IMG/VR virus record: IMGVR_UViG_3300050034_000042
Location: 1-40,459 of that record
Strand: one strand, 5' to 3'
Origin: a virus
DNA length: 40,459 bases
Shown piece by piece: positions 7,149-40,459 of this stretch. Within the stretch, counting starts at the first letter, position 1; each line of letters starts with the position of its first letter. The translations under genes were made by a program, and so were the position numbers. The notes below the pieces were generated by a model. The model searched no databases and had not been told where the DNA came from. It saw nothing but the letters and a program-made list of their open reading frames with translations.

Positions 7149-7709
7149 TTATTTTGTAATTTCTACTTCTTTATCCAAGCAGAAATACTTATTATTATTT
7201 CTTCGACCCACGATTGACTTACACTTGAAAGAAATGTAAGCAAAAGCGACTGCATAAAATGAGATGTCCCTCGCTTTGATGTTCCTCGCTTCGATGTCCC
7301 ACGCTTCGATGTCCCTCGCTTTGATGTTCCACGCTTTGATGTTCCACGCTTTGATGTCCTTCGCTTCGATGTCCCTCGCTTCGATGTCCCTCGCTTCGAT
7401 GTCCCACGCTTTGATGTCCTTCGCTTCGATGTCCCTCGCTTCGATGTCCCTCGCTTCGATGTCCCACGCTTCGATTTTCCCCGCTTCGATGTTCCACGCT
7501 TCGATGTTCCACGCTTCGATGTCCCACGCTTCGATTTTCCCCGCTTCGATGTCCCACGCTTTGATGTTCCACGCTTTGATGTTCCCCGCTTCGACTATAA
7601 TTTCTGCATCTATAGAAAATGAAACCTCAAACCTTACATCACCTTCTATTTTAAGGATACAATCTACAATATCTGCTTCTATTTCTTTTTGTGTTTTGTA
7701 TATTTTCAT
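7149..7709 (-). CDS. Pentapeptide-like repeat protein (beta-solenoid suspected)
   Basis: A 186-residue protein from ATG 7709; a TTG at 7718 would add three residues. After a 45-residue N-terminal region it consists of about 23 five-residue repeats of the type (W/R/G/K)(D/N/K)I(E/K)A, then a 35-residue C-terminal cap. The strict isoleucine every fifth residue suggests a right-handed quadrilateral beta-helix of the pentapeptide-repeat class, though alanine sits in an atypical register. Proteins with GDIKA/WNIEA repeats are frequent in phages and in Bacillota; function is generally unknown. The repeat DNA is a near-perfect 15-bp minisatellite, so copy number should change rapidly. Confidence 0.65.
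   Translation of the reverse strand: MKIYKTQKEIEADIVDCILKIEGDVRFEVSFSIDAEIIVEAGNIKAWNIKAWDIEAGKIEAWDIEAWNIEAWNIEAGKIEAWDIEARDIEARDIEAKDIKAWDIEARDIEARDIEAKDIKAWNIKAWNIKARDIEAWDIEARNIKARDISFYAVAFAYISFKCKSIVGRRNNNKYFCLDKEVEITK
7264..7605. repeat. 15-bp tandem repeat (minisatellite) inside a gene
   Basis: About 23 head-to-tail copies of a 15-base unit close to tcgatgtcccacgct (plus strand). Variants involve c/t at the second position, the middle bases and the ccac/cctc/cttc portion. Since 15 is a multiple of three, several frames stay open on both strands through the array. The minus-strand frame of 7149-7709 is taken as real because it has unique N- and C-terminal parts and fits the operon. Confidence 0.9.
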
Positions 7710-7710
7710 G

Positions 7711-7929
7711 TTAGTCAAAATTACTGCTTACTATTTCTATATCATCCTTTTCGGGAGCTTCATGCTCCCAACAGGTGTCTGCGACCTTTGCCTTTTCCGC
7801 CACCTGTTGAAGTTTCTTTAACTTCCTCGCCCATGCTTGACCGCCTTTCTTTCCCCCTTTCTTGCCTCCTTGCTGTCCAAACCATTCAGGACTCCCTTTG
7901 GGAAACCTTTTTTCGATTTTCTTTGACAT
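7711..7929 (-). CDS. Small basic hypothetical protein
   Basis: A 72-residue protein with a very basic, glycine-rich middle (GGKKGGKKGGQAWARKLKKL) and an acidic C terminus. The lysine/glycine run suggests nucleic-acid contact but no domain is recognised. Its stop overlaps the 5' end of the repeat-protein gene. Upstream of its ATG lies the structured element at 7963-8093, which could form part of its antisense leader if transcription runs leftward from further upstream. Confidence 0.5.
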   Translation of the reverse strand: MSKKIEKRFPKGSPEWFGQQGGKKGGKKGGQAWARKLKKLQQVAEKAKVADTCWEHEAPEKDDIEIVSSNFD

Positions 7930-10890: not shown

Positions 10891-11070
10891 TTGTCAAACG
10901 GCACAACGCGCTTAGCGCAAGCAAAAATGTTAGTTCAGGGCAATAAAGCGGCAGGAGTAGAAAGTGAAATGGAAATGGATATTACAAAAAATGAACCAAC
11001 AGGAAGTATCCCAAAGAAGATGAAGAAGATTGCATTAAAGAATCCATCAGAACATAATCACTCACTATAA
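10891..11070 (+). CDS. Small hypothetical protein, TTG start
   Basis: A 59-residue frame starting at TTG, one base after the upstream TAA (TAA-A-TTG), giving a natural N terminus MSNGTTRLAQAKML. The alternative is ATG 10927, leaving 47 residues. It is polar with a lysine cluster (IPKKMKKIALKNP) and is followed closely by the glycosyltransferase gene. Function unknown. Confidence 0.5.
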   Translation: MSNGTTRLAQAKMLVQGNKAAGVESEMEMDITKNEPTGSIPKKMKKIALKNPSEHNHSL

Positions 11071-11077
11071 ACGCTAC

Positions 11078-12112
11078 ATGAAATCAGTTGCGTATTTTCC
11101 TCACCAGCCTAGTGGATGTTTTTGGTACAGAACAGAACACCCAATGCTAACACTTTCAGCGAATGGTATAAAAACCATTCCTATAGAGTTAGATAAGGAT
11201 GTTGAAATAGAGAATATAGCTTCTTTTCATTTCTATGGAGCTACGCCGTTTTCAATGGATAAAGCTCTTACATACCTTAAAGAACAACACATAAAAATTG
11301 TTTATGATGTTGATGATGTATTGGATTTGATAGATGAGACTAACCCGTCGTATTATTCAGTGAAGAAAGATACTGGATCGTTCAACCAAATGATTGAGTA
11401 TGCCGATGAAATCACCGTAGCCACGCCAGTAATAAAAGAAGTCTTATCTCAAAGAACAAAAACTCCAATTACTGTATTACCCAATTGTTATATCCCTGAT
11501 GAATGGATATACAAACGTATTCCTCATGAAGAGATACGAATAGGTTTTGCCGGAAGCTTAACTCATGTAATAGATTTGATTGAAATAATTCCAGCTATTA
11601 AACAACTACAAGCTACATATAACGTAAAGTTCTATATCTTTGGTTTCGGTCAAGATACTTATGAACGATGGTTCAAAGATTTTAGATACTCGTCAACCGA
11701 AAAAGGAAAAGAAAAACTAATTGAATTAGATAAGCTCTTAAAAGAAATAAAGTTTGAATGGATACCCTTCGTTAATTACAAACTCTATCCACGTTTACTG
11801 ACAGAATTATCTTTAGACATAGGATTGTGTCCATTGAAATCCACACCATTCAATAATTGTAGAAGTGCAAGCAAGGCAATGGAGTATACTTTATCCGGTG
11901 CATTAGCTATTGCTGAAGATGTGCCGCCCTATCAAGAAGACAAAACATCTATTTTAGTAAAAGATAATTGGTTTGACAAAATAAACTATTATTGCAATAA
12001 TAAATACATTAGAGACACTCACCACAAACAACATTTAGATTGGCTTATCGAAAACCGCCAAATGAAATCACAATTTGACACATTAAAGAAAGTATATGAT
12101 ATATCACTGTGA
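11078..12112 (+). CDS. GT-B type glycosyltransferase
   Basis: A 344-residue protein with a glycosyltransferase group 1 (GT4-like) layout. An N-terminal Rossmann half contains KIVYDVDDVLDLI and a linker PNCYIPDEW. The C-terminal half contains IRIGFAGSLTHVIDLIEIIPAIKQL and the donor-binding region SASKAMEYTLSGALAIAEDVPPY near residues 263-285, with the glutamate that contacts the nucleotide sugar in retaining GT-B enzymes. The likely role is glycosylation of phage or host surface components together with the sugar cassette downstream. The leader carries the motif AACGCTA two bases before the ATG. It overlaps a small zinc-protein frame at its 3' end. Confidence 0.8.
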   Translation: MKSVAYFPHQPSGCFWYRTEHPMLTLSANGIKTIPIELDKDVEIENIASFHFYGATPFSMDKALTYLKEQHIKIVYDVDDVLDLIDETNPSYYSVKKDTGSFNQMIEYADEITVATPVIKEVLSQRTKTPITVLPNCYIPDEWIYKRIPHEEIRIGFAGSLTHVIDLIEIIPAIKQLQATYNVKFYIFGFGQDTYERWFKDFRYSSTEKGKEKLIELDKLLKEIKFEWIPFVNYKLYPRLLTELSLDIGLCPLKSTPFNNCRSASKAMEYTLSGALAIAEDVPPYQEDKTSILVKDNWFDKINYYCNNKYIRDTHHKQHLDWLIENRQMKSQFDTLKKVYDISL

Positions 12113-12651: not shown

Positions 12652-13813
12652 AGTTTTATGTTGCGGAAGACGTTGGGGTAAAACTACTCTAGCGATTGAC
12701 CAAATGAAAGGCAGAGCTTCTATTCCTAATTCTCGTATTGCTTATGTGGCTCCAACGTATCAGCAAGCACGAGATATTGGATGGGAACAATTACGAAACG
12801 ATTGTAAGAACGCCGCAGAATCAATCAATGAATCACGACTAGAAATAAAGTTAGTGAATGGTTCACAAATAATCTTACGAGGTTGGGAAGCAATTGAAAC
12901 ATTACGAGGACAACATTTTGATATGGTTGTTTTAGATGAAGTAGCAATGATGAGAAACTTTTGGTCAAACTGGAATGAAGTTATTAGACCAACATTGACT
13001 GATACGAAAGGTGAAGCGTTGTTTATCTCCACACCGAAGGGCTTTAATCATTTCTATGATTTGTATAATATGCAAGATAAGGATAGTGATTATCAATCGT
13101 TTCATTTTACTTCCTATGACAATATCCATCTTCCAAAAGAAGAATTGGATAAGGCCGCAAAAGAATTACCCGAAGACCAATTTGCTCAAGAGTATCTCGC
13201 TGACTTTAGAAAGACACAAGGTCTGGTTTATAAAGATTTCAAACGTGAAGTGCATGTCTATCGTGATGATGCTATCAACGTTGTTGAAAGACTTGTACCG
13301 ATTGATTGGGGTTATACAAACCCAACGGCAATCTATTTGATATTGAAAGACACTGATGCAAACTATTGGATAACAAACGAGTATTACAAAACAGGTAAGA
13401 CTACATCTGAAATCATTGAGTATGCCAAGTCATTACGAGGCAACAAATACTATCCTGACCCTGCTGAACCTGACAGGATTGAAGAAATGAAAAGAGCCAA
13501 CTTAAATGTCCGTGAAGTATCAAAAGCCATTGAAGCTGGTATTAGTGCTGTGCAAGAACTGTTGAAAACTAACCGTGTGCATATTAATTATTCTTGTGTT
13601 AATCATATCAATGAGTTTGAAACATATCGTTATCCCGACAAAAAACCAGACATGAATGAAAAGGAAACGCCAGTAAAAGAACATGACCATGCACTTGATG
13701 CCATTAGATATGCTTTGTATATGCAAGTACCAATAGAATCAAATGGCCGTGCTAAACAATTTGTACCTAACATGGTTGGTGGTACGAGACGAGGTTATTA
13801 TTCAAAACTATGA
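12581..13813 (+). CDS. terL: Terminase large subunit (ATPase/nuclease)
   Basis: Up to 410 residues from GTG 12581; ATG 12599 (residue 7) is an equally good start with less overlap. The ATPase has Walker A GRRWGKT (29-35), Walker B MVVLDE (115-120) and coupling motif FISTPKG (148-154). The nuclease domain begins PIDWGYTNPTA (Asp242), and acidic residues near 293 and in HDHALDAIRYAL (369-373) complete an RNase H-like metal site. It pumps DNA into the capsid and cuts it. Its stop overlaps the next gene's ATG. The presence of terS, terL, portal and an HK97-type capsid protein establishes a tailed phage. Confidence 0.93.
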   Translation: MKQHNDMQFHPSQAQVALNLKRFRVLCCGRRWGKTTLAIDQMKGRASIPNSRIAYVAPTYQQARDIGWEQLRNDCKNAAESINESRLEIKLVNGSQIILRGWEAIETLRGQHFDMVVLDEVAMMRNFWSNWNEVIRPTLTDTKGEALFISTPKGFNHFYDLYNMQDKDSDYQSFHFTSYDNIHLPKEELDKAAKELPEDQFAQEYLADFRKTQGLVYKDFKREVHVYRDDAINVVERLVPIDWGYTNPTAIYLILKDTDANYWITNEYYKTGKTTSEIIEYAKSLRGNKYYPDPAEPDRIEEMKRANLNVREVSKAIEAGISAVQELLKTNRVHINYSCVNHINEFETYRYPDKKPDMNEKETPVKEHDHALDAIRYALYMQVPIESNGRAKQFVPNMVGGTRRGYYSKL

Positions 13814-15312
13814 TAACTGTCGTAACACCTTTCAAGCGTAAAGAAAACATGAGCCTCATGGCAGATATGCTCAAAGGTAAATGCAATTGGGTTGTGTTGA
13901 TTGACGATGAGATTACTTTTCCTGATTGGGTTACTGTTAAGAAGTATTCAAAGCCACCTGTTGAAATTGGTTTGTGTCCATCTAACTGGTTGTTTAATAA
14001 GTTTATTGACGAAGGTTTGGATGATGAAACGCAGTACATGATTCTATGCGATGACGATGCTGTTGAAGATGGTTTCTTTGACAAGATACCGAATGATGAC
14101 GCTGTTATAGTCTCGATGAAACGTAGTGAAGATGAAACTAATACACTCATTGCGTCACCCGATAACATTGCAATCGGTAAAGTCGGTGGTGAACAGTTAA
14201 TTCTCAAAGGAAAGATACTTAATCACTATCGCTATGGTTTATCAAACATTGGTGATGGTGAAATGATTATCAATGTTGTGAGGAATCATCAGATAACCTA
14301 TGTTCCAAAAGCATTTGTCATATTCAATCTATTTGAAGACGGCAGATACGCTATCAATCTCAATCGTAAGAAAGAAGATAGAGTAAAACCTGTTGTGATG
14401 TTTGTCGGTGATTACTATTGTGCTGGAAATCCATCAATGGGAATATCAGAATGGGAAGGTAACATTTGGTCATCACTTGAATCAACTGGACTGGTAGATG
14501 TCTGTCGTTTCCATTTTGATAAATACTATTATGTTACAGGCAATCGTGGTGACCAAGCATTACTTGAACGCATTGAATTAATCCAACCTGATTACATTGT
14601 TTTAATCATCTATAAGTTCCCCGGACAAGATTCAGCAGTAATGACTATTGAAACGCTTTCAAAGATAAAAGTACCAATTATTACTATTTGGGGCGATCTT
14701 GAAGCACAACAACAAAGAGATATTGCTACAGTTGTTAAACCTTTTGTATCAAAGATTATAGGTACAGCTACTAAAGAGATTGTTGAATCACTTGGCTACA
14801 CTTATATGCACGTTCCGAAAGACCCTCGTATATTCTACAATCCAAACATTGAACGTGACATAGATGTAGTGTTTTCAGGCTCCTACGGTCTCGGTAGAAG
14901 CGAAAGACAGGAAGTTTTGCAATATCTACTGGATAACGGCGTTAAACTCGTTGTAGGCGGTTCTGAAGGCAGAGACCATTTCACGACAGAAGAATATGCA
15001 ATGAGATATAAACGAGCAAAGATTGCTATTTCATTCTCTAAAGCTCATGGTATCAATGTGGTTAATGCCAGACCTTTTGAAGCTTTAGCTTGCGGTGCAA
15101 TGCTTATCGAACAAGACAGTCCTGAACTATGTAAACTGTTTGAAGAAAACAAAGAGTTTGTTATGTGGAAAACAAAGGTTGATTTATTAGAGAAGATAAG
15201 GTACTATTTATCACATGAAAAAGAACGCTACACTATCGCTAGGTCGGGTCAGTCCAAAATTGAAGAAAGCTACTCCGCAAAACAATTCTGGGAAACTGCA
15301 TTACAAAGTTAA
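13810..15312 (+). CDS. Two-domain glycosyltransferase (GT-A plus CgeB-like GT-B)
   Basis: A 500-residue protein. Residues 1-190 resemble a short GT-A domain: MITVVTPFKRKENM, a DDE at 32-34 and LCDDDAV with a DDD/DxD motif at 81-83 for metal and nucleotide sugar. Residues about 195-500 resemble CgeB-type GT-B proteins: VMFVGDYYCAGN, DVVFSGSYGLGRSERQ near 352 and ARPFEALACGAMLIEQD near 420-435. Two catalytic domains in one chain would let the enzyme add two sugars in sequence. It begins inside the terL stop, so it belongs to the packaging transcript, and opens the sugar cassette. Confidence 0.75.
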   Translation: MITVVTPFKRKENMSLMADMLKGKCNWVVLIDDEITFPDWVTVKKYSKPPVEIGLCPSNWLFNKFIDEGLDDETQYMILCDDDAVEDGFFDKIPNDDAVIVSMKRSEDETNTLIASPDNIAIGKVGGEQLILKGKILNHYRYGLSNIGDGEMIINVVRNHQITYVPKAFVIFNLFEDGRYAINLNRKKEDRVKPVVMFVGDYYCAGNPSMGISEWEGNIWSSLESTGLVDVCRFHFDKYYYVTGNRGDQALLERIELIQPDYIVLIIYKFPGQDSAVMTIETLSKIKVPIITIWGDLEAQQQRDIATVVKPFVSKIIGTATKEIVESLGYTYMHVPKDPRIFYNPNIERDIDVVFSGSYGLGRSERQEVLQYLLDNGVKLVVGGSEGRDHFTTEEYAMRYKRAKIAISFSKAHGINVVNARPFEALACGAMLIEQDSPELCKLFEENKEFVMWKTKVDLLEKIRYYLSHEKERYTIARSGQSKIEESYSAKQFWETALQS

Positions 15313-15313
15313 A

Positions 15314-15409
15314 ATTTCAACAATTAGATGTTGTCTTTGCGGTCAAAATATTTTAGACACTCCATCCAATAGATTTTTGATAGAAACCTATAAAGGAAAT
15401 AAAATATGA
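15314..15409 (+). CDS. Very short Cys-motif ORF, apparent ATT start
   Basis: A 31-residue frame (STIRCCLCGQNILDT...) with a CCxC cluster. No ATG, GTG or TTG gives a sensible start, but ATT 15314 lies one base after the upstream TAA, giving M-S-T-I. Its TGA overlaps the next ATG as ATGA, which argues that it is translated. An ATG at 15215 in this frame would sit 98 bases inside the glycosyltransferase gene and is less likely. Confidence 0.4.
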   Translation: MSTIRCCLCGQNILDTPSNRFLIETYKGNKI

Positions 15410-15585
15410 ATGAATTTTTCTCACAATTTTCACTTAACCTAGATTTATCAGATTACATTAAATGCCAGACATTTCATGTTATCTCTTTGAGAATACACAA
15501 ATGTGAATTTTGCTCTAATGTAACTTTATTTTTACTAGGAATAGGTTTTGTAATCCAATATACATGGAAACCACACGAAAGATGA
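15406..15585 (+). CDS. Small membrane-associated protein with CxxC
   Basis: A 59-residue frame: MNEFFSQFSLNLDLSDYIKC, then a CEFC pair and one hydrophobic segment (VTLFLLGIGFVIQYTW) near the C terminus. Both ends overlap neighbours as ATGA, so it is probably translated. No function can be assigned. Confidence 0.5.
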   Translation: MNEFFSQFSLNLDLSDYIKCQTFHVISLRIHKCEFCSNVTLFLLGIGFVIQYTWKPHER

Positions 15586-16457
15586 GAAAACTTCTTATCA
15601 CAGGAGCTTATGGCCTCGTAGGTTCTAATATCTGTAAGGTATTGGAACGTGATTATCCTAATATTCAGGTGTTTAAGATTAAATTCGATGAGGGTTTAAC
15701 TATTGCAACTGAAGAACCATTTGACGGAATGGATTACATAATTCATGCGTCGGGTTATGGTCAGCCTCAAATGTTTTCTAAGGATAAATTAAAGACGATT
15801 GAAGTTAATACTGAATATACAAATATTTTGTTTAAGTCTCTAAAAAAAGGTGGCACTTTTCTTTTTATATCAACTTCCGAAGTCTACAGCGGCGCACCAT
15901 CTCCTCACAAAGAAACAGACATAGGAACTACCACACCTCAACACCCTAGAGCGTGCTACATCGAAGGTAAGCGTTGTGGAGAGGCTATTTGTATGGCTTA
16001 TTTGGAACAAGGCTACGATGTAAAGATAGCTCGACTAGCTTTGGCTTATGGCCCAGGAACAAAGAAAGGTGATACTCGTGTTCTTAACCAATTCATTGAA
16101 CAGGCTTTGACGACTAAAGAAATACATTTGAAAGATGACGGGTCTGCTGTAAGAACATATTGTTATATAGACGATGCCGTTGAAATGCTTTTGAACATAT
16201 TATTCTATGGAAAGGATTGTGTTTACAATGTCGGAGGTGTTTCAACTCTTACTATCAAAGATGTAGCAGAGTATATTGGTGAAATTACAAAGTCTACAGT
16301 TTATCTAGGTGATAAGATACTTGATGGTTCACCAGATTCTGTTAAACTAGATTTGATTAAATATCTAGATGAGTTCCCAAAACAGTTTGTGGATTTTGGA
16401 ATTGGAATACAAAAGACGATAGATTATCAAAAAAAATTATATGGAATCACAAACTGA
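15582..16457 (+). CDS. NAD-dependent sugar epimerase/dehydratase (extended SDR)
   Basis: 291 residues from ATG 15582, chosen because it forms ATGA with the upstream stop and places the dinucleotide motif GAYGLVG at residues 8-14; a start at 15564 would add six residues. The active site is STSEVY (97-102) with Tyr126 and Lys130 (YIEGK). The late motif DDGSAVRTYCYIDDAVEMLL is typical of UDP-glucuronate decarboxylase-like and UDP-glucose epimerase-like SDRs. It uses NAD to oxidise a nucleotide-bound sugar transiently at C4. The exact substrate is undetermined; the next gene suggests a GDP-linked hexose pathway. Confidence 0.8.
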   Translation: MRKLLITGAYGLVGSNICKVLERDYPNIQVFKIKFDEGLTIATEEPFDGMDYIIHASGYGQPQMFSKDKLKTIEVNTEYTNILFKSLKKGGTFLFISTSEVYSGAPSPHKETDIGTTTPQHPRACYIEGKRCGEAICMAYLEQGYDVKIARLALAYGPGTKKGDTRVLNQFIEQALTTKEIHLKDDGSAVRTYCYIDDAVEMLLNILFYGKDCVYNVGGVSTLTIKDVAEYIGEITKSTVYLGDKILDGSPDSVKLDLIKYLDEFPKQFVDFGIGIQKTIDYQKKLYGITN

Positions 16458-16473
16458 ATATAAAATCGGTGTA

Positions 16474-17451
16474 ATGTATATGGAACAAATTAAACCTAGA
16501 GCATTAGTGTTCGGCCTGACCGGACAAGATGCAAGTTATATGTGTGAACTCCTACTAGAAAAAGGTTACGAAGTACATGGAACTATGCGCCGTTCATCCA
16601 CTCCGAACACTTCCAATGTCAATAAGATAATCAGTAGTATTAATACTCACTTGATGGACTTGTCTGATGCTACGTCTATCAACAAAGTCATATCAGAAGT
16701 GAAACCAGACTTGATGTTCTGTTTAGCGGCACAATCAGATGTTCGTGCAAGTTATGATATTCCTTTGTACACGGAAGATGTTACGGGTGTTGGCTTTGGT
16801 AGGATACTTGAGGCCGCTAGAATGTTCTGTCCACAAGCAAAGATATATCAAGCTGGAAGTAGTGAGATGTTTGGAAAGGTTGAAGCAATACCACAATGTG
16901 AAACAACACCATTTCATCCACGTTCTCCGTATGGTTGTTCTAAAGTCTTTGCCTTCATGTTGGGTCGTGCATATCGTGAAGGCTACGGAATGAAAGTCTA
17001 CAATGGTATCTTGTTCAATCACGAATCACCTCGTCGTGGTCATTTGTTTGTTACTCGTAAGATTGTCAAAGCCGCAGTCAATATCAAGAATGGTAAACAG
17101 TCCAAACTAAAACTTGGTAATATACAATCAAAACGTGATTGGGGTTACAGCAAAGAATACATGGAAATCATTTATGAGTTTGTGACTACGCAAGAACCAC
17201 AAGACTTCGTTGTAGCCACAGGCGAGACTCATACTATTGAAGAATTTGTTAAAGAAGTATTTGATTATCTTGATTTAGGTGACTGGAAACAGTACGTTGA
17301 GTTTGATGCTAACCTATTGCGCCCAGCCGAAGTTGATTTGCTATTAGGCGATGCAAGTAAGATGAAACGGCTTTTGAACAGAGAAATAAAGGTCAAGTTT
17401 AAGGAGTTGGTTAAAATAATGGTAGATGCAGAATTAGAAGATAACAAATAA
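16474..17451 (+). CDS. gmd: GDP-mannose 4,6-dehydratase
   Basis: About 325 residues; ATG 16474 and ATG 16480 are equivalent choices, and the frame is open back to 16441. GLTGQD (14-19) binds NADP, QAGSSEMFG supplies the catalytic Ser and Glu (near 129-131), and SPYGCSK supplies Tyr153 and Lys157. FNHESPRRG (181-189), KRDWGYSKEY and GETHTIEEFV are near-diagnostic for GMD. It converts GDP-mannose to GDP-4-keto-6-deoxymannose, the precursor of fucose, rhamnose, perosamine and related sugars. The flanking epimerase, cupin, methyltransferase and transketolase genes would modify that product further. Confidence 0.92.
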   Translation: MYMEQIKPRALVFGLTGQDASYMCELLLEKGYEVHGTMRRSSTPNTSNVNKIISSINTHLMDLSDATSINKVISEVKPDLMFCLAAQSDVRASYDIPLYTEDVTGVGFGRILEAARMFCPQAKIYQAGSSEMFGKVEAIPQCETTPFHPRSPYGCSKVFAFMLGRAYREGYGMKVYNGILFNHESPRRGHLFVTRKIVKAAVNIKNGKQSKLKLGNIQSKRDWGYSKEYMEIIYEFVTTQEPQDFVVATGETHTIEEFVKEVFDYLDLGDWKQYVEFDANLLRPAEVDLLLGDASKMKRLLNREIKVKFKELVKIMVDAELEDNK

Positions 17452-17487
17452 AAAAATATGTATAAAGAACCATTTAGAAAAGCATAA

Positions 17488-17844
17488 ATGAACTTACCAA
17501 TAACTAGACATGAAGATGAAAGACGAATACTGATTGAGTATATTAAAGATATACCCATGAAGCGGTCTAAAGTTTTGATTGTTAAACAGAAATGTGTTCT
17601 GGGTAAACACTATCATCTAAAAAACGACAGTGTGTTCTATATGTTAAAAGGAAAAGGAATTTGCACACTGAAGTCTGCTCATTCACAGACAGCTCATGTT
17701 ACTCGTGAATGGATGTTCGAGGGTGATTGCAAGTTTGTACCTCGTGGTGTTATTCATCGGTTTGAGTTGTTTCCCGATACCATAATGCTTGAATCGGCAA
17801 GCGAACCATTTGACCAAAATGACGAAATACAGGTTATTGACTAA
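17488..17844 (+). CDS. Cupin-fold protein, candidate sugar isomerase
   Basis: A 118-residue single-domain cupin. Motif 1 is GKHYHLKNDSVFYMLKGKG with metal-binding His41 and His43; motif 2 is FVPRGVIHRFEL with His90. The usual motif 1 glutamate is replaced around Asp/Ser. The size and setting fit small cupins that isomerise 4-keto-6-deoxy sugars (FdtA/WlaRB-like) or mannose-6-phosphate isomerase type II fragments. With GMD upstream, a 3,4-ketoisomerase acting on a GDP-linked keto sugar is the favoured guess. Confidence 0.65.
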   Translation: MNLPITRHEDERRILIEYIKDIPMKRSKVLIVKQKCVLGKHYHLKNDSVFYMLKGKGICTLKSAHSQTAHVTREWMFEGDCKFVPRGVIHRFELFPDTIMLESASEPFDQNDEIQVID

Positions 17845-18604
17845 AAAAGAAGAAGAACAAACGATTATCAAGATACTTGATACATTGCTTGACCCATCCG
17901 TTCCATATTCTGGTGAACATCGTCAATCACAATGGGAAAAGGGATGGGGTGAAAACTTAAAAGAAGGAGACATCAATCCTCGTTACTTTGGAAAGTATAA
18001 AGTTAATCGTTTGAATGGAAAGTTTGTGTGGGGTATTTCAAAAGATTATGAACAAGAAATGCTCTACACATTGGTTGATAGTCTTTCAAAGAAATATCTC
18101 ACAAAGGTTGATACTGTCTGTGAGTTTGGTTGTGGAACTGGTCATAATCTCTATAGAATTAAGAAAGAAAAACCTGATATACGAGCTATAGGACTTGATT
18201 GGACTAATAGTTCAAATAAAATAGTACAAGCTATTGGTATGGAAGGTTATCATTTTGACTTTTTCAAACCACATTTCAACATGCCGAAGGACTCTGCTGT
18301 TCTTACAGTGGCGGCATTGGAACAGACTGGTCGAAAGTACAAACGGTTTGTGTCGTTTCTCCTTAAAAAGAAACCATCAATTGTGGTTCACATCGAACCT
18401 ATCCCAGAACTGCTTGACCCAACCAAGTTGATTGACTATCTTTCAATCAAGTACATGGAAAAGAGAAAATACTTGAGTGGATATTTAGACTATCTTCGTG
18501 AACTTGAGAAGCAAGGGAAGGTTAAGATACTTGAAGCACGTCGATCTGGCATTGGTAGTATGTTCCTTGATGGTTACTCCATAATCGCATGGCGACCACT
18601 ATAA
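17819..18604 (+). CDS. SAM-dependent methyltransferase
   Basis: 261 residues from ATG 17819 (17789 is a possible longer start). VCEFGCGTGHNL (near residues 100-111) is the glycine-rich SAM motif I, followed by an acidic IGLDWT that would bind the ribose. The N terminus contains an unusual WEKGWGENL segment. It overlaps the cupin gene by 26 bases and the transketolase gene by 16, so it is part of the same cassette. A sugar O- or C-methyltransferase is likely by context; TylF/NovP-type or generic folds are not distinguishable by eye. Confidence 0.7.
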   Translation: MTKYRLLTKKEEEQTIIKILDTLLDPSVPYSGEHRQSQWEKGWGENLKEGDINPRYFGKYKVNRLNGKFVWGISKDYEQEMLYTLVDSLSKKYLTKVDTVCEFGCGTGHNLYRIKKEKPDIRAIGLDWTNSSNKIVQAIGMEGYHFDFFKPHFNMPKDSAVLTVAALEQTGRKYKRFVSFLLKKKPSIVVHIEPIPELLDPTKLIDYLSIKYMEKRKYLSGYLDYLRELEKQGKVKILEARRSGIGSMFLDGYSIIAWRPL

Positions 18605-19332
18605 AAAAACTTCGTAATAGGATACTTGAAGTTGCATTGCGTGATGGCATGGGTCATATTCCATCTGCACTTTCCATTCTTGATATAGTTTGGACTTTGT
18701 ACGATAAAGTAATGACTCCTGATGACCAATTCATCCTTTCTAAAGGTCATGGTGTTATGGCTTTATACGCTGTCCTAGAGGAAAAAGGACTAATGACATG
18801 GAATGATAAACTATGGGGACATCCGAAGCGTGGCGGGGCTATTCTAGCCTCTACTGGCTCTTTAGGACACGGTATGCCAATGGCTGTAGGACTTGCGCTG
18901 GCTAAAAAGATAAAAGGTGAACAAGGACGTATCTTTTGTCTTATAGGTGACGGTGAATGTAACGAAGGAACGATATGGGAGAGTGCTTTGATTGCCGCAC
19001 ATCATAAGTTAGACAATTTGGTGGTGATTGTAGACCAGAATCATTCAAGTGATAGGGCATTGAATCTTGGGATTTTGAGAGCGAAGTTTACAGCCTTTGA
19101 TTGGTTTGCCTTAGGAATAAATGGCCATGCCGAAAGCACTCTTGTAGAAGTATTGGATAATTATCATTATATTCCTGATGTTGATGAACCAATAAACTTT
19201 CACGCCAATCATCCGCTTTGTATAATTGCGGATACAATCAAAGGCAACGGTGTCCCTTTCATGCAAGACCCTAGTTGGCATAATCGTAAACTTAATGAAT
19301 CGGAGTATAATGAAGCAATAAAACTATGTTAG
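18589..19332 (+). CDS. Transketolase N-terminal subunit (TPP-binding domain)
   Basis: A 247-residue protein. ILSKGHGVMALYAVL (near 49-63) and GSLGHGMPMAVGLALAKK (90-107) are transketolase signatures. GDGECNEG (120-127), running to VDQN (148-151), is the thiamine diphosphate/Mg motif GDG-x25-30-N. This is the PP domain only; the Pyr domain is encoded by a separate gene at 19483. Split transketolases occur in archaea, many anaerobes and O-antigen clusters. The enzyme transfers a two-carbon ketol unit between sugars. Beside a GDP-hexose pathway it may make a branched or higher-carbon sugar rather than serve central metabolism. Confidence 0.9.
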   Translation: MATTIKKLRNRILEVALRDGMGHIPSALSILDIVWTLYDKVMTPDDQFILSKGHGVMALYAVLEEKGLMTWNDKLWGHPKRGGAILASTGSLGHGMPMAVGLALAKKIKGEQGRIFCLIGDGECNEGTIWESALIAAHHKLDNLVVIVDQNHSSDRALNLGILRAKFTAFDWFALGINGHAESTLVEVLDNYHYIPDVDEPINFHANHPLCIIADTIKGNGVPFMQDPSWHNRKLNESEYNEAIKLC

Positions 19333-19490
19333 GTTATCATTTCAAAACTATTAAAGAAGCTCAAGACTTTTTGGAGATAAAAAAGAAAGAACCCCAGTCA
19401 GTTTTAATTGATTGTAAGCCAATAGAATGGATTATTATACCTTTCTCAAATGGATATGTGGTAACTGATAAACAATCAACTAATGCGTAA
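19326..19490 (+). CDS. Small protein between the two transketolase genes
   Basis: A 54-residue frame starting MLGYHFKTIKEAQDFLEIKK. It overlaps the end of the N-subunit gene by 7 and the start of the C-subunit gene by 8 bases, so the three are translationally chained. Strand/helix alternation (QSVLIDCKPIEWIIIPFSNGYVV) looks like a small folded domain. No homolog comes to mind; it could help assemble the two transketolase parts. Confidence 0.5.
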   Translation: MLGYHFKTIKEAQDFLEIKKKEPQSVLIDCKPIEWIIIPFSNGYVVTDKQSTNA

Positions 19491-19953
19491 ACAATTTCCT
19501 AAAACTTGTTTAGAAATAATGGACAAAGACGAGCGTGTTGTCGTTCTTCTTGGCGATATTGGCGTGTTTGCTTTCAAAAATATCTTTGAGAAATATCCAC
19601 AGCGTGTGTATAACGTGGGGATATGTGAACAGTCAATGGTCGGAATGGCCGCAGGATTGGCTATAGCAGGTTTCATTCCTATCGTGCATACTATTTCACC
19701 TTTCCTCGTTGCCCGTGCGTATGAACAAATACGAGATGACTTTGGTTTTCAAAACCTTATGGGTACATTCGTTGGAGTAGATGTATATTCAACAAGTCCT
19801 AATCTTGGTTTGACACATTCATGTCCTGAAGATATTTCACTTATGGATAATGTACCGAACATGAATACTTATGCGCCGCAATCAGCAGAAGAATTTGATA
19901 AACTACTGAAAGAACACTATGGTGATAGACTTAATTACTTTAGAATAGTGTGA
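19483..19953 (+). CDS. Transketolase C-terminal subunit, pyrimidine-binding domain only
   Basis: A 156-residue protein. RVYNVGICEQSMVGMAAGLA contains the catalytic glutamate (Glu49) that activates thiamine diphosphate. Later segments PFLVARAYEQIRDDFGFQN and GLTHSCPEDISLM are the usual Pyr-domain motifs, including the active-site histidine. Stand-alone C subunits are normally about 300 residues and end with a transketolase C-terminal domain. This one stops right after the Pyr domain, so the third domain is absent. That domain is not catalytic in known enzymes, so activity with the 18589 product is possible. Confidence 0.85.
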   Translation: MRKQFPKTCLEIMDKDERVVVLLGDIGVFAFKNIFEKYPQRVYNVGICEQSMVGMAAGLAIAGFIPIVHTISPFLVARAYEQIRDDFGFQNLMGTFVGVDVYSTSPNLGLTHSCPEDISLMDNVPNMNTYAPQSAEEFDKLLKEHYGDRLNYFRIV

Positions 19954-19959: not shown

Positions 19960-20000
19960 TTAATAAACTTTACTAACCAAGAACGCTACCATGAATATCA

Positions 20001-22468: not shown

Positions 22469-22500
22469 TTAATTATTAGTAACGCTAACAAAAAAACTCT

Positions 22501-22866: not shown

Positions 22867-23317
22867 CATTAAAAAACCACGAGTTAATAAGTCTAAAAAA
22901 GATATAGTTAGTGATTTACAGTTGATTGAATCAGCTAAACGCCGTCGTTCCCTCGTCAAGGATATTTTATTTCCTTATTTAGTTTCACTTGATGAGACTG
23001 TCGGATATTCAAAGGTATTTTTACAAGCATTTTCAGGTCTTATAAACGGTGTGTTCGATGAGAAAAGAAAGACTACTACCATTCAACAGTTAAATCCTAG
23101 ACTTATGCAAAAGCTAGGAGAAATCTTTGATATAAAAGACGATACTCAAAAGAAAGAATATGAACGATACCTAAAACTTATTGGTATTTTAGAAAATATT
23201 TCAATAGAAGACTTGTCGTATGCCACAGAATTACCTCGTTACATTGACGGGTATATGTTAAAAGACAAGAACAAGGAAAAGATAAGTGTCATAAAGATTG
23301 ATGAAATACTTGGATGA
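22859..23317 (+). CDS. Hypothetical helical protein
   Basis: A 152-residue helical, basic protein starting MPNIKKPRVNKSKKDIVSDL. It overlaps both neighbours by a few bases, indicating a coupled group 22501-23646. No known family; a head-assembly accessory is likely by place. Confidence 0.6.
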   Translation: MPNIKKPRVNKSKKDIVSDLQLIESAKRRRSLVKDILFPYLVSLDETVGYSKVFLQAFSGLINGVFDEKRKTTTIQQLNPRLMQKLGEIFDIKDDTQKKEYERYLKLIGILENISIEDLSYATELPRYIDGYMLKDKNKEKISVIKIDEILG

Positions 23318-23646
23318 AAAATAGAATAAAAAACTATTTACTTCGTCATTTACTTAATCCAGTAATGGTAGAGGATGTTATTACCCAAGATAAGACCAAC
23401 AAAATATATTTGGGTGGTAAATTAGTCAGTGAAGATAGATTGAGACAATGGCAGGCCGAAATTAAGGCAATAGAAGGTTCAGATGTATGGAAATGTGCCG
23501 AAGAATCATTACGGTTTCAAGCACAAGATAAAATATTCAATATATCTACAAAGTTTGAAGATGTTGTAGCAGGGAAGTTGATGTTGTATAATTTAGAAGT
23601 AATTGATTCTGTTTTTCGTGTCATTAAAAATAGACAGTTGAAATAG
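23314..23646 (+). CDS. Hypothetical protein of the head region
   Basis: A 110-residue protein. The segment KIYLGGKLVSEDRLRQWQAEIKAIEGSDVWKC... is of a type often seen just after portal genes in podovirus-like genomes (small proteins with a GGxLVSxD motif and a helical hairpin). Function unknown. Its 3' end overlaps the promoter of the RNA gene that follows. Confidence 0.6.
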   Translation: MKNRIKNYLLRHLLNPVMVEDVITQDKTNKIYLGGKLVSEDRLRQWQAEIKAIEGSDVWKCAEESLRFQAQDKIFNISTKFEDVVAGKLMLYNLEVIDSVFRVIKNRQLK

Positions 23647-23657
23647 TGTGGTATAAT
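23631..23657 (+). promoter_or_regulatory. Promoter of a short structured RNA
   Basis: TAGACA at 23631-23636 (five of six to the -35 consensus) and TATAAT at 23652-23657 (exact), with TGG directly before it giving an extended -10. Spacer 15 bases. Transcription is predicted to start at about 23664. Confidence 0.65.
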
Positions 23658-23663
23658 AGAATG

Positions 23664-23784
23664 TAGTTTGATAATTTGCAGAACGCTAAGATCCGATGGG
23701 TGCTTGTAAGAAGCATCTGTATCTTAATTAGCGTTCTGGTACAGATTCTTCATAGAGGCACTCATCAAAAATGAGTGTTTTTTT
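23664..23784 (+). ncRNA. Small structured RNA with its own promoter and terminator (candidate antisense regulator)
   Basis: No gene lies between 23647 and 23848. The predicted transcript starts near 23664 and ends at a terminator at 23784, about 120 nt. cagaacgctaa (23679-23689) pairs perfectly with ttagcgttctg (23728-23738) over 11 bp; inside, gat/atc and an inner hairpin tgctt/aagca (23701-23705 with 23711-23715) continue the arm. The 3' strand of the main stem is complementary to motifs in the leaders of several late genes: 12 nt in the capsid gene leader at 25056-25067, and 7-9 nt before 11078, 20001, 22501 and 30442. A trans-acting antisense RNA or an attenuator for the scaffold gene are the two readings. 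No known RNA family is recognised. Confidence 0.6.
23759..23784 (+). terminator. Intrinsic terminator of the small RNA
   Basis: cactcat (23759-23765), loop caaaa, and atgagtg (23771-23777) form a perfect 7-bp stem followed by seven T's. It sits 65 bases before the scaffold gene start. Confidence 0.8.
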
Positions 23785-23848
23785 ATTAGTTAATCTGGGC
23801 GCGGCTGAAATGCCCTTTCGTAAAGAATAAAGGCCGTTTACCAAATAC

Positions 23849-24400
23849 ATGACAATAGAAACAAAGCCAGTTGAAACTAAAGTGGTTGAGACCGCTGGCA
23901 CTCCACCAGAGACCGTAGTCGCTCAAGAGACTACAGAGGTAGATTCCGAAACTTTGCTTGCTCAAAAAGATGCTGAAATAGCAAAGATTGCCACAGAGCG
24001 TGATAATTACCGTAAGGGATTACTCAAAGCTAAAGGCAAGATACCTGCGGAGGAAGAATTGGATAGTTCTACTCCCGAAGGATTGGATGCTCTTATTGAT
24101 AGAAAAGTAACCGAAAGGATGCTTGCTACCAAAGAAGCTCAACTCCACGCTGAAAAGGATGACATCATTAAAAAAACCTTAAAGCGAAACAAAGAGCTTG
24201 AATTGGCATTGAAAAATCGCACAGGTATTACTTCTACTTCTGGTCAGGGTTCAAATCAAGAAAAACCAGAAGGCAAAGCGGATAATTTCTTTTCAAATGA
24301 ACAGCTTGCCTCATTAAAGGCCAAAGGTTACAGCGATAAGAAAATAGAAGCTCTCAAGAAGAATATGCAAAACGCTCCATCAATGCCGACTTCAAAATGA
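23849..24400 (+). CDS. Scaffolding protein (probable)
   Basis: A 183-residue, acidic and highly charged protein. A disordered N terminus rich in Glu/Thr/Val (ETKPVETKVVETAG) is followed by a long coiled coil (about 38-120), a linker, and a C-terminal helix with basic residues (LKAKGYSDKKIEALKKNMQ) that could bind the capsid shell. Composition, length and place directly before the capsid genes are typical for phage scaffolds. No protease domain is present in it. Confidence 0.7.
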   Translation: MTIETKPVETKVVETAGTPPETVVAQETTEVDSETLLAQKDAEIAKIATERDNYRKGLLKAKGKIPAEEELDSSTPEGLDALIDRKVTERMLATKEAQLHAEKDDIIKKTLKRNKELELALKNRTGITSTSGQGSNQEKPEGKADNFFSNEQLASLKAKGYSDKKIEALKKNMQNAPSMPTSK

Positions 24401-25045: not shown

Positions 25046-25097
25046 TTAGTTTGGTCAGAACGCTAATATATTATTAGCTCATTAAAATTATAAAAAA

Positions 25098-25408
25098 ATG
25101 TTTACAGAAGCTCAGCAGTACGCCATCGTCCGTACGGAACTTGACGATGTGTTCTATCAGGAATTTAATTACGAGGACAGTAACCCCGTAATGACAACTT
25201 GCAAGAATGCAATGATATTCATGCAAGAAACAACTGACCGAGCATTCGATATTGAGGAAGTTTACAAGGGTGTAAACCTCTTCCCTTCGATTACAGAAGC
25301 CCAGACAGTTCCAACCTCGACACCGCACGTTGCAAACAAAATTACCACTCAAATTAAGGACTTTGCAGAAAGCGTGGAACTTTCAAAGGACTTGTTTGAT
25401 GACAACAT
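25098..25408 (+). CDS. Major capsid protein, exon 1
   Basis: Encodes the first 103 residues and the first two bases of codon 104 of an HK97-fold type major capsid protein. The exon ends ...ELSKDLFDDN-AT, and after splicing codon 104 becomes ATG. The leader contains CAGAACGCTAAT (25056-25067), perfectly complementary to the small RNA at 23664-23784, and a palindrome gctaata-tat-tattagc (25062-25078). No Shine-Dalgarno; the start follows an A run. Read without splicing the frame would run to a stop at 25451 with residues unlike the family. See exon 2 for the rest. Confidence 0.85.
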
Positions 25409-26206
25409 AAAATCCCCTTATATGGGGTCTATGCAGATAGCATTTGCGTAGCCATGTGTGTTGTATAAACTGGGATAACTTCGGGGAAAATCCAATCAAA
25501 TGGACAACCCCGACCCAAGCATAAGATTAAAAGTTTTATGAAGGGCGAACGACTAGAGTGTGAAACTAGAAATAGAAAATAATCACTCCACGAAACCCCA
25601 GCTTCCGAAAGGAATGAAGATATAGTCTGACCTCTAAAGTACCTTGAAATATTGATAAATGTTTGCTCATGTGATAGGATTAAACTATCCTATGAACAAA
25701 TGTAATAGATGTAAAAAAGAAAAGAATGAAAGTGAGTTTGTAACCACTTCGGGTAAACCATCAACTAGATGTATCGCTTGCCGAGAAGAAAGAAATAAAC
25801 AGGCGAAGGAATACTACAAAAGGTGGCATGATGAAATACGAAGCGGTGATAAAATCTACTATCATAAAAATAGAGAACATTTCAAATTAAGAAATAAGAA
25901 TAATAATTTGAAACGAAAGTATGGAATCACTCTTGTTCAGTATGATAAAATGTACAGAGAACAAGGTGGTAAATGTGGAATATGCAGTTTGATTTTTACC
26001 GAAAACATCAATAAAGGATGGGGCGGAAAAAACGAACCTTGCGTAGACCATGACCACACAACAGGTGAGGTAAGGGGAATCCTATGCAGGGGATGTAACT
26101 TATCACTCTCGATGATAGAAAATGAAGGTTTTCTTTTGAAGTCTAGTCAATATCTCAAGCAAGTTAGAGAAAAATCGGATAAAGAGCCGATTTAAGTAAC
26201 AAAAAG
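25409..26206 (+). mobile_element. Group I self-splicing intron with internal HNH gene
   Basis: A 798-base intron interrupts the capsid gene. The 5' exon ends in T (25408) and the intron ends in G (26206), as group I rules require. The exon end acaacat (25402-25408) pairs over 7 bp with an internal guide gtgttgt (25458-25464), with the conserved U-G wobble at the splice site. The core has gacta (25551-25555) and tagtc (25623-25627) within the hallmark sequences acgactagag and aagatatagtct, forming P7. Splicing restores DDNMHGVWAKTVRDL in phase. The endonuclease gene follows the core, and a hairpin aaatcgg/ccgattt precedes the 3' site. Confidence 0.93.
25692..26195 (+). CDS. Intron-encoded HNH endonuclease, endonuclease VII-like
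   Basis: 167 residues from ATG 25692 (an upstream ATG at 25659 adds an unlike segment). An N-terminal zinc finger CNRCKKEKNESEF, closed by CIAC, precedes the recombination endonuclease VII core: YGITLVQYDKMYREQGGKCGICS (near 77-99), then CVDHDHTTGEVRGILCRGCNLSL (117-139) with the catalytic His-Asp-His and the second zinc pair. Lodged in the 3' half of a group I intron, it is expected to cut intronless capsid genes and drive homing by recombination. Its AT and lysine content exceed the capsid gene's. Confidence 0.85.
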   Translation: MNKCNRCKKEKNESEFVTTSGKPSTRCIACREERNKQAKEYYKRWHDEIRSGDKIYYHKNREHFKLRNKNNNLKRKYGITLVQYDKMYREQGGKCGICSLIFTENINKGWGGKNEPCVDHDHTTGEVRGILCRGCNLSLSMIENEGFLLKSSQYLKQVREKSDKEPI

Positions 26207-26846
26207 GCACGGTGTTTGGGCTAAGACTGTTCGAGACCTTGCCCTAAAAGCTCGTGTTTCGATGGATCAGAATGCCTTTAAGGTATTTCGTGGTGCATGG
26301 ACTACTACTCTTACCGCAGATGGTGTTGCCCTCGTTGGAAACCACGCTCTGTTGAATGGTGCATTCTACAGCAATAACCTATACACCATTTCTCAGGCAT
26401 CTACGGTATTGAGTTCAATATCATTGAACGCCGCTATCTCGGCATTGGCTATTCAGCCAGACCAAGCAGGTGTTATTTTGGGTCAGCAACCTCAGATTCT
26501 TTTGGTTCCACCATCGTTGATTAAACTCGCTTTGGAACTTTCAGACTCTGCTCTTTCTGGAGACCAGACAACTAACGCTATCAACGTATTCCGTTCAGCG
26601 TATGGTTATCGTGTCTTCTCAAATCCTTATATCTCTGCCGCCGCAGGTGGTTCAGATACGGGATGGTTCGTCATTGCACGAAATCATGGCATCAAGAGAC
26701 TCATTCGTCAGGGAGTGGAAACATTCCTTCGCCCATGGGGTTACTCAAACAACCGAACATATCTCTATCAGTGTAACTTCCGTGAGGAAGTTGTAGCGAT
26801 TGACTATGTTGGAGTTATTGGTGCGCAAGGTTTAGCGACAGCTTAA
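26207..26846 (+). CDS. Major capsid protein, exon 2
   Basis: Begins with the last base of codon 104 and adds residues 105-316; the joined protein has 316 residues, a normal size for an HK97-fold capsid protein. The sequence HGVWAKTVRDLALKARVSMDQNAFKVFRGAWTTTLTADG..., then QPDQAGVILGQQPQILLVPPSLIKLALEL and GWFVIARNHGIKRLIRQG, follows the order of conserved blocks in bacteriophage major head proteins of this class. The in-frame ATG at 26262 is internal. A very stable UUCG hairpin follows the stop. Confidence 0.85.
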
Positions 26847-30413: not shown

Positions 30414-30441
30414 TAAATATAGAACGCTTCAACAAAATACA

Positions 30442-39526: not shown

Positions 39527-39844
39527 ATGAAAAACGAACACCAACAAGAACGAGCAGACGACAAAGCTGAACGAAAAGTAGTCAGTGACGTTAAGGCTAG
39601 TGATATGATTTCAGTCAAGAAGCTCTCTGCTATTGGCTTTGTCATGATTATGGGAATTATCGGCTGGAATCTTATTCAAGTTTATGACCTCAATGCTCAA
39701 GTAGCTGTTCATACAGAAATGCTTAATAACCTTCAAATTGATATGAACACTATGCAACCCGAAGTTCAGTCTATGTATCAAAGTCGAGAATGGAATTCGG
39801 CATTACTTAATAATTCCGTATCAGACGATACGCCAATGAGATGA
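39527..39844 (+). CDS. Membrane-anchored protein of the putative lysis cassette
   Basis: A 105-residue protein with a charged N terminus (MKNEHQQERADDKAERKVVSD), one membrane helix at about residues 33-53 and a polar, partly coiled-coil C terminus (AQVAVHTEMLNNLQIDMN). N-in, C-out topology resembles hemolysin-XhlA-like or spanin-like proteins. Its stop overlaps the ATG of the peptidase gene. A lysis role is inferred from context. Confidence 0.55.
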   Translation: MKNEHQQERADDKAERKVVSDVKASDMISVKKLSAIGFVMIMGIIGWNLIQVYDLNAQVAVHTEMLNNLQIDMNTMQPEVQSMYQSREWNSALLNNSVSDDTPMR

Positions 39845-40459
39845 AAATAAAAAATAAACAACTTGTAGAGGGACAGTTTGGACATGGTGCAATCCACCAC
39901 TCCCGTCTTCATCATTGGTTCAAAAGGAAGATGAGACCAACACTTGGTCGTGCAGAGATACCTTTTGACTGGAGTAAGCCAATACCCGATCCGATGTATC
40001 CTGTAAAGAACCAAGGAACGTCATTTTCCTGTGGTGGCCAAGCTGGAAGTTATCTTATCCGGGACTTACTTAAAACGGCCGGAAAAGACCAAGGAGAGAT
40101 TTCAGCTAAAAGTATCTATGCCCCCTATTGTGCTGTAGGCGGTGGTATGACACTCGATGCCATTGAGACATGTATCGGCGCTCATGGTTCTAACCTTGAA
40201 AGCCTTGTATCGTCGTACGATGTCAATGGTAATCCTCTTACAGAGCCAATGTTTGAGACGAGGGTATGGGAAACGCCTCAAACCGACGCAGATGCCCTCA
40301 CACGAGCTGGATACACCCCAGTAAGCGTTGCAATAGACAAAGACAACATGGCAGAGGCTATACGAGACTACGGTGGCATTATCATGCTTATACAGGGGCA
40401 GAATGGCAATCAGCCGATGAATTGGACGACAGCGACACCGGCCCCGCCTTCAAAGAGCA
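39841..40459 (+). CDS. Papain-like (C1) cysteine peptidase, N-terminal part (continues at 1)
   Basis: The gene starts at ATG 39841, overlapping the upstream stop, and runs off the window; the unique part joins base 1 after 40332 to give 291 residues ending at 384. VKNQGTSFSCGGQAGS (55-70) is the papain signature, with oxyanion Gln58 and catalytic Cys64. His214 and Asn230 are encoded at the window start. No signal peptide. C1 peptidases are known in phages but uncommon. Placed between two small membrane proteins, and with no lysozyme, amidase or CHAP gene elsewhere, it could be the lysis enzyme cutting peptide bonds of the envelope; capsid processing or attack on host proteins are alternatives. 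Confidence 0.85.
   Translation, partial: MKIKNKQLVEGQFGHGAIHHSRLHHWFKRKMRPTLGRAEIPFDWSKPIPDPMYPVKNQGTSFSCGGQAGSYLIRDLLKTAGKDQGEISAKSIYAPYCAVGGGMTLDAIETCIGAHGSNLESLVSSYDVNGNPLTEPMFETRVWETPQTDADALTRAGYTPVSVAIDKDNMAEAIRDYGGIIMLIQGQNGNQPMNWTTATPAPPSKS
40333..40459. repeat. Terminal direct repeat, second copy (assembly overlap)
   Basis: Identical to bases 1-127. Removing one copy restores a single uninterrupted peptidase gene, showing that the circular join is correct. Confidence 0.95.

Follow-up and report, generated by a model that had tools for sequence, protein, structure and literature searches.

In the window (the whole 40,459-nt stretch of viral DNA analysed here), an undescribed RNA element lies between gp110, used here as the marker of the locus in related phages, and a scaffold-like gene, with the major capsid gene further 3'. 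The outer stem of the RNA is called P1, and the locus reads as follows.

23314..23646, + strand: gp110, a small helical structural-region protein directly 5' of the RNA, with homologues in most relatives
23647..23657, + strand: extended -10 promoter TGTGGTATAAT, with a full extended -10 box and a predicted start at about 23664
23679..23689, + strand: region 1, the P1 5' strand CAGAACGCTAA, the same as the motif of other leaders
23695..23723, + strand: region 2, the P1 loop complementary to region 4 (26 pairs)
23696..23720, + strand: inner hairpin P1b of the terminating state (minimum-energy fold)
23727..23738, + strand: region 3, the P1 3' strand plus one loop base, ATTAGCGTTCTG, antisense to the leader motif
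23738..23766, + strand: region 4, which pairs with region 2 and whose 3' end is the terminator 5' arm
23754..23784, + strand: intrinsic terminator, 12-bp stem at 23754-23782 (5' arm 23754-23765, 3' arm 23771-23782)
23797..23837, + strand: small H-type pseudoknot in the scaffold leader, GGGC-loop-GCCC, whose loop GCGGCT pairs with GGCCGT
23849..24400, + strand: scaffold-like gene, the first gene 3' of the terminator, which precedes the major capsid gene in relatives

A preliminary description of this DNA had placed a near-consensus promoter, about 120 nt of strongly paired sequence and a textbook intrinsic terminator in a gap between coding genes, and most of this was borne out. The gap is bounded by gp110 on its 5' side and the scaffold-like gene on its 3' side, and the transcript predicted from promoter and terminator agrees with the RNA coordinates given there, 23664-23784. 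The terminator combines its 12-bp stem with a CAAAA loop and seven T at 23778-23784, and is the strongest among 9 terminator-like sites in 14-33 kb, a region in which simple terminator matches are no more frequent than in shuffles (9 found, 13.5 expected). The stretch 23663-23786 folds at -43.8 kcal/mol, compared with -24.0 +/- 3.0 for its shuffles (z -6.5), and none of 200 shuffles folds as well. The promoter, on the other hand, is near-consensus by half only, since its extended -10 box is complete but no -35 hexamer fits. Boxes of the form T(A/G)TGnTA..AT also stand directly 5' of the portal gene, gp22069 and gene 30442, and no extended -10 box was found between the terminator and the capsid gene of the window.

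The flanking genes offered few clues of their own. An AlphaFold model of gp110 (pLDDT 87) gave a single significant Foldseek match, to an uncharacterised viral protein, and gp110 was dropped as a candidate RNA-binding regulator for want of an informative structural match. The scaffold-like gene had no Pfam or PHROG match. The pseudoknot in its leader scores above all 20 shuffles in the window and averages 21.1 vs 11.7 over 45 relatives, many of which have an H-type pseudoknot just 5' of the scaffold start, with a 3-5 bp hairpin and a loop of about 7 nt that pairs with an A/T-rich tail. Compensating changes are seen in this pairing (AGCTATA/TATAGTT, AGATATG/CATATTT, GAACGCT/AGCGTTT), and it may be a separate translation element.

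Uncultured relatives were collected from IMG/VR through portal and capsid protein searches. The scaffold gene alone as a protein query found no relative; cultured phages gave no match in a DNA search and no relative in a portal protein search, and a capsid search of the phage collection returned two weak matches only, both environmental records. A collection-wide search with the pattern GAACGCTAA..TTAGCGTTCTG recovered one relative, already known. Binning suggested no consistent host, and none was assigned because the titles of the MAGs conflict (Bacteroidia, Falkowbacteria, Pacearchaeota, Erysipelotrichaceae).

The defining trait of the RNA is a crossing helix: the loop enclosed by P1 is complementary to the stretch 3' of P1 (the tail), including the 5' arm of the terminator. 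Blind scanning of 47 distinct loci for an outer stem whose loop pairs with the next 45 nt found the best match anywhere in the locus within the gp110-scaffold gap for about half of them. With the further requirement of a terminator whose 5' arm is complementary to the loop, the architecture was present in the gap in 19 of the 47 relatives, and elsewhere in 610 kb it occurred nowhere on the + strand and twice on the - strand. The window itself holds this full architecture once, with none on the other strand, and its best descriptor energy is -49.5, the best of 25 shuffles being -40.0. Switch sequences diverge strongly among loci, each of which retains 20-38 loop-tail pairs. Of 23 loci, 20 have a terminator 3' of the helix; it is missing from two relatives (L039 and L040) that do have P1 and the loop-tail helix.

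Spacing around the element is regular on its 3' side, with 49-72 nt from terminator to next start codon in most loci, and ranges from -4 to 84 nt between the gp110 stop and P1. In about half of the relatives P1 starts no more than 18 nt after the gp110 stop, which leaves no room for a promoter in the gap. The distance is 32 nt in the window; loci with a wide upstream gap tend to have a -10 box there, and several relatives carry the same -10 box 13-40 nt before P1. Two others (L004 and L008) have the same type of promoter leading straight into the scaffold leader, with no switch RNA. In five further relatives (L068, L076, L059, L025 and L042) one long hairpin replaces the switch in this gap, and the hairpin loop of L059, AAAGCATTT, is antisense to AAATGCTTT of its own capsid leader.

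The preliminary description had named conserved pairing in related phages as one test of its proposal, and such pairing was found. In a formal alignment of six relatives, which share ancestry, 11 of 15 pairs in the loop-tail helix have changes on both sides, as do 18 of 29 pairs in the whole structure. The covariation score of the whole structure is 0.545, falling to 0.159 or less when the partner is slid by one to three columns, and the best column-run pairing in the alignment is the loop-tail helix, followed by P1 and then the terminator. Comparison of the window with its nearest relative (L080) gave a similar picture over 26 loop-tail pairs: 13 are kept and 6 lost, and the remaining 7 all differ on both sides, with no one-sided change. 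Judged from these sequences, the element is a conserved structured RNA. Loop-tail helices contain 75 G-U pairs vs 24 A-C mismatches. Pairing is better on the + strand than on the - strand for 18 of 23 loci, a comparison slightly biased because these loci were chosen on the + strand. The excess of G-U and the better pairing of the + strand fit a + strand RNA rather than a DNA palindrome.

Two folds compete within this RNA. The loop is complementary to the terminator 5' arm and therefore competes with the 3' arm for it: 123 of 147 terminator-arm bases are paired with the loop in register, while shuffling the 5' part of the loop 200 times gave a mean of 73 and a maximum of 93. In the window the folds are iso-energetic in nested-fold predictions (-43.8 kcal/mol terminating vs -43.3 read-through), which ignore a possible pseudoknot coexistence of P1 with part of the 2:4 helix. 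The predicted minimum is the read-through fold while the transcript ends at about 23766-23774 and becomes the terminating fold once the 3' arm emerges. The terminated fold buries region 3 in P1, and the predicted read-through fold leaves it unpaired, or almost so. Only in some loci can the P1 5' strand clearly pair with the terminator 3' arm, and this pairing was dropped as a general feature.

The P1 5' strand CAGAACGCTAA recurs, whole or in part, in the leaders of five other genes of the window (RNA oligonucleotide form of the motif, CAGAACGCUAAU), listed here with the predicted duplex with region 3.

19980..19988, + strand: AGAACGCTA before the portal start; -17.2 kcal/mol, p 0.002
22481..22488, + strand: AACGCTAA before gp22501; -13.8 kcal/mol, p 0.004
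25056..25067, + strand: CAGAACGCTAAT before the major capsid gene, a 12-nt perfect complement of region 3; -18.9 kcal/mol, p 0.004
30421..30428, + strand: AGAACGCT before gene 30442; -12.5 kcal/mol, p 0.018
11070..11076, + strand: AACGCTA before the glycosyltransferase-like gene at 11078; duplex not significant, p 0.07

Duplexes of region 3 with unrelated leaders were not significant. The core AACGCT has 5 of its 13 copies in the 4% of the window that is non-coding (binomial p 1.3e-4), and its reverse complement, with 7 copies, has none there. AGGAG, as a Shine-Dalgarno sequence, preceded none of 30 checked starts in the window, where leaders are A-rich throughout.

The match between P1 and leader motif extends to relatives, with leaders defined by mechanical ORF calls. 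An antisense test over the whole gap was positive, but as P1 contains both senses it could not tell the strands apart and was replaced by a test specific to P1. The 7-mers of each phage's own P1 match 22 leaders, against a mean of 6.9 and a maximum of 16 in 2000 swaps of P1 between phages, and reverse-complement P1 7-mers match only 2. Among 107 leaders of phages with an AACGCT-type P1, AACGCT occurs in 16 and ACGGGC in none, whereas 81 leaders of ACGGG-type phages have AACGCT in 1 and ACGGGC in 6; relatives with another P1 sequence thus tend to bear the corresponding motif in their own leaders. Two phages in which the long hairpin replaces the switch (L068 and L076) have neither a terminator nor the P1 sense strand, carry UAGCGUU at the hairpin tip and have AACGCT in their leaders, and several relatives without any gap hairpin have no AACGCT in theirs. 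The correspondence has exceptions: L025 has the antisense loop and lacks the motif in its leaders, most switch loci outside the AACGCT and ACGGG groups have no clear leader match (e.g. L105, L107 and L114), and neither do L009 and L031 within the ACGGG group. The antisense match to structural-gene leaders supports a possible role in trans.

A search against Rfam, which the preliminary description had suggested, was run on the window with Rfam 15 and no family reached its gathering cut-off, the nearest being trpB with 21.4 bits against a cut-off of 59. In 11 relatives the only matches above threshold were group I introns located elsewhere, and the c4 family model had no cut-off match at the switch site in either set. 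Some traits of known classes are nonetheless present. As in c4, region 3 is complementary to leaders near start codons (portal, gp22501, capsid and 30442), and as in terminator/antiterminator systems an intrinsic terminator stands 5' of a candidate controlled gene, with a conserved, covarying alternative helix that takes up the terminator arm. Ligand-binding nucleotides of the kind expected in a metabolite riboswitch were not seen, as no loop-tail pair is invariant among the six relatives and the P1 core ACGGG is the only fixed part of their alignment. A type III toxin-antitoxin RNA (toxI) was rejected, the window having a single copy with no tandem repeats and the next gene being a scaffold homologue without a Pfam match. 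Control by a leader peptide was also rejected, because the 11-codon frame opened by an ATG in the RNA has no counterpart in L009 or L029.

Lambda-type late read-through requires protein Q, whereas the RNA described here bears its own predicted antiterminator. Lambda-type PR'/tR' and the StxS locus nevertheless have the same order of late promoter, short terminated RNA and late genes, although no sequence relation to either was found. In Shiga phages the short terminated late RNA, StxS, functions as a small RNA and binds a ribosome binding site (PMC7873438). The c4 RNA of bacteriophages P1 and P7 has loops with short stretches complementary to a phage mRNA leader near the ribosome binding site (PMC12197685). 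What c4 and the present element have in common is short antisense boxes in the loops of a phage RNA, but the target of c4 is the antirepressor mRNA ant and here it would be structural-gene leaders. We know of no terminator/antiterminator of the present kind in c4. The put RNA of phage HK022 is a leader RNA that suppresses termination in cis (PMC9378689); put acts on RNA polymerase, whereas the arm complementarity seen here suggests competition between folds. Mutually exclusive terminator and antiterminator helices 5' of a controlled gene are shared with T boxes, riboswitches and antisense-controlled plasmid attenuators, but the present element conserves neither an aptamer nor a tRNA-binding sequence, its covarying helix crosses the outer stem and the setting is a phage structural operon. 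The RNA element matches no described Rfam family; its layout resembles known phage leader and antisense RNAs, none of which matches by family model.

The locus had been proposed to be a free-standing small RNA gene, making a functional RNA rather than an attenuated leader of the scaffold gene. The window does have its own promoter and terminator, and conserved structure and the antisense match to leaders speak for a functional RNA; against the proposal as it stood are the spacing tied to the scaffold start, the lack of a gap promoter in about half of the relatives and the complementarity of the terminator arm to the RNA's own loop. Because of these three features and the layout of L004 and L008, the evidence for an attenuated scaffold leader is at least as good, and such a leader is compatible with a functional RNA. 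The association of the element with scaffold and capsid argues for attenuation and against a gene that merely stands free.

We propose, with moderate confidence, that the scaffold-capsid operon is preceded by a bistable leader RNA in which terminator and antiterminator alternate, and which would pair with other late leaders through its stem or its short product. When this leader is closed, regions 1 and 3 would form P1 and the terminator (4:5) would halt transcription, leaving an RNA of about 120 nt. In the open state, region 2 would pair with region 4 and occupy the terminator 5' arm, and RNA polymerase would read through into scaffold and capsid. This state would also free region 3, antisense to the motif in portal, capsid and other late leaders, and pairing with those leaders could couple transcription of the capsid operon to the other structural mRNAs, by acting as the trigger to open P1, through an antisense effect of the short RNA on the leaders, or both. 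That termination and read-through occur, that the pairing takes place in cells and in which direction it acts, we infer from the predicted folds and the motif matches. The specific version in which portal and capsid mRNA leaders are trans-acting signals that pair with region 3, open P1 and disable the terminator seems doubtful.

Other explanations account for parts of these data. The RNA could be mainly a trans-acting antisense small RNA, in which the terminated 120-nt product binds the AGAACGCTA motif of late leaders via region 3 and alters their translation, the loop-tail pairing being its fold only. The significant duplexes with four leaders and not with unrelated ones, the joint change of P1 and leader motif across relatives and the hairpin loops of L068 and L076, which carry the antisense alone, all agree with this; such an RNA, however, needs neither the complementarity between terminator arm and loop nor a fixed spacing to the scaffold start, would lack a promoter in the gap of half of the relatives and would have region 3 buried in P1 in the very fold that terminates, and we regard it as unlikely. 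Somewhat more unlikely is a plain cis attenuator, in which P1 is opened by a phage or host protein or by the ribosome binding to single-stranded AGAACGCUA, a motif that P1 shares with other leaders, and the antisense strand is a mere partner in the stem. Motif copies do stand near start codons in a phage without Shine-Dalgarno sequences at the starts checked, and in the relatives with P1 close behind the gp110 stop a terminating ribosome could cover P1. But P1 is farther from that stop in the window, and L068 and L076, whose gap has no sense copy, retain the antisense strand, which is at odds with a role as partner only.

Finally, loop and tail are inverted repeats that could extrude in DNA, and the locus might hold no regulator at all, only a DNA-level inverted repeat (a protein site or a replication or packaging element) or a chance fold. 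The G-U excess, the better pairing of the + strand, the terminator that follows the helix in nearly all switch loci and the descriptor energy beyond that of any shuffle make this highly improbable.

Very little is known of how uncultured phages regulate their structural genes, and here a covarying RNA switch without a described family precedes the capsid operon of at least 20 diverged phages, with a P1 stem sequence that changes jointly with the motif of other late leaders. The bistable leader that we favour offers an RNA-RNA circuit, open to direct test, that could time or balance capsid production and, as predicted, would be a compact natural bistable terminator. Under the more doubtful version, with portal and capsid leaders as trans-acting signals, the scaffold-capsid operon would be transcribed in proportion to other structural transcripts, by an RNA-only assembly-timing circuit shared across a large group of uncultured phages.

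Other features of the window lie outside this element. The capsid gene (25098-26846) is interrupted by a group I intron at 25423-25649 (RF00028, 45.8 bits, E 2.8e-10, just under the cut-off of 50), and an endonuclease VII-like gene lies at 25659-26195; L039 and L040 have above-cut-off introns near the same capsid position, and the capsid gene of other relatives is uninterrupted. Between terminase and portal (13810-19953) lie sugar- or glycan-type genes, named by eye from their translations as epimerase/dehydratase-like, methyltransferase-like and transketolase-like halves. A - strand gene at 7219-7718 contains a long run of degenerate repeats (IEAWDIEARDIEAKDIKAW...) that is open in several frames. 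The proteins cut by the right end (39841-40459) and the left end (1-384) of the record overlap, with residues IDKDNMAEAIRDYGG... in common, which suggests a terminally redundant or circular record.
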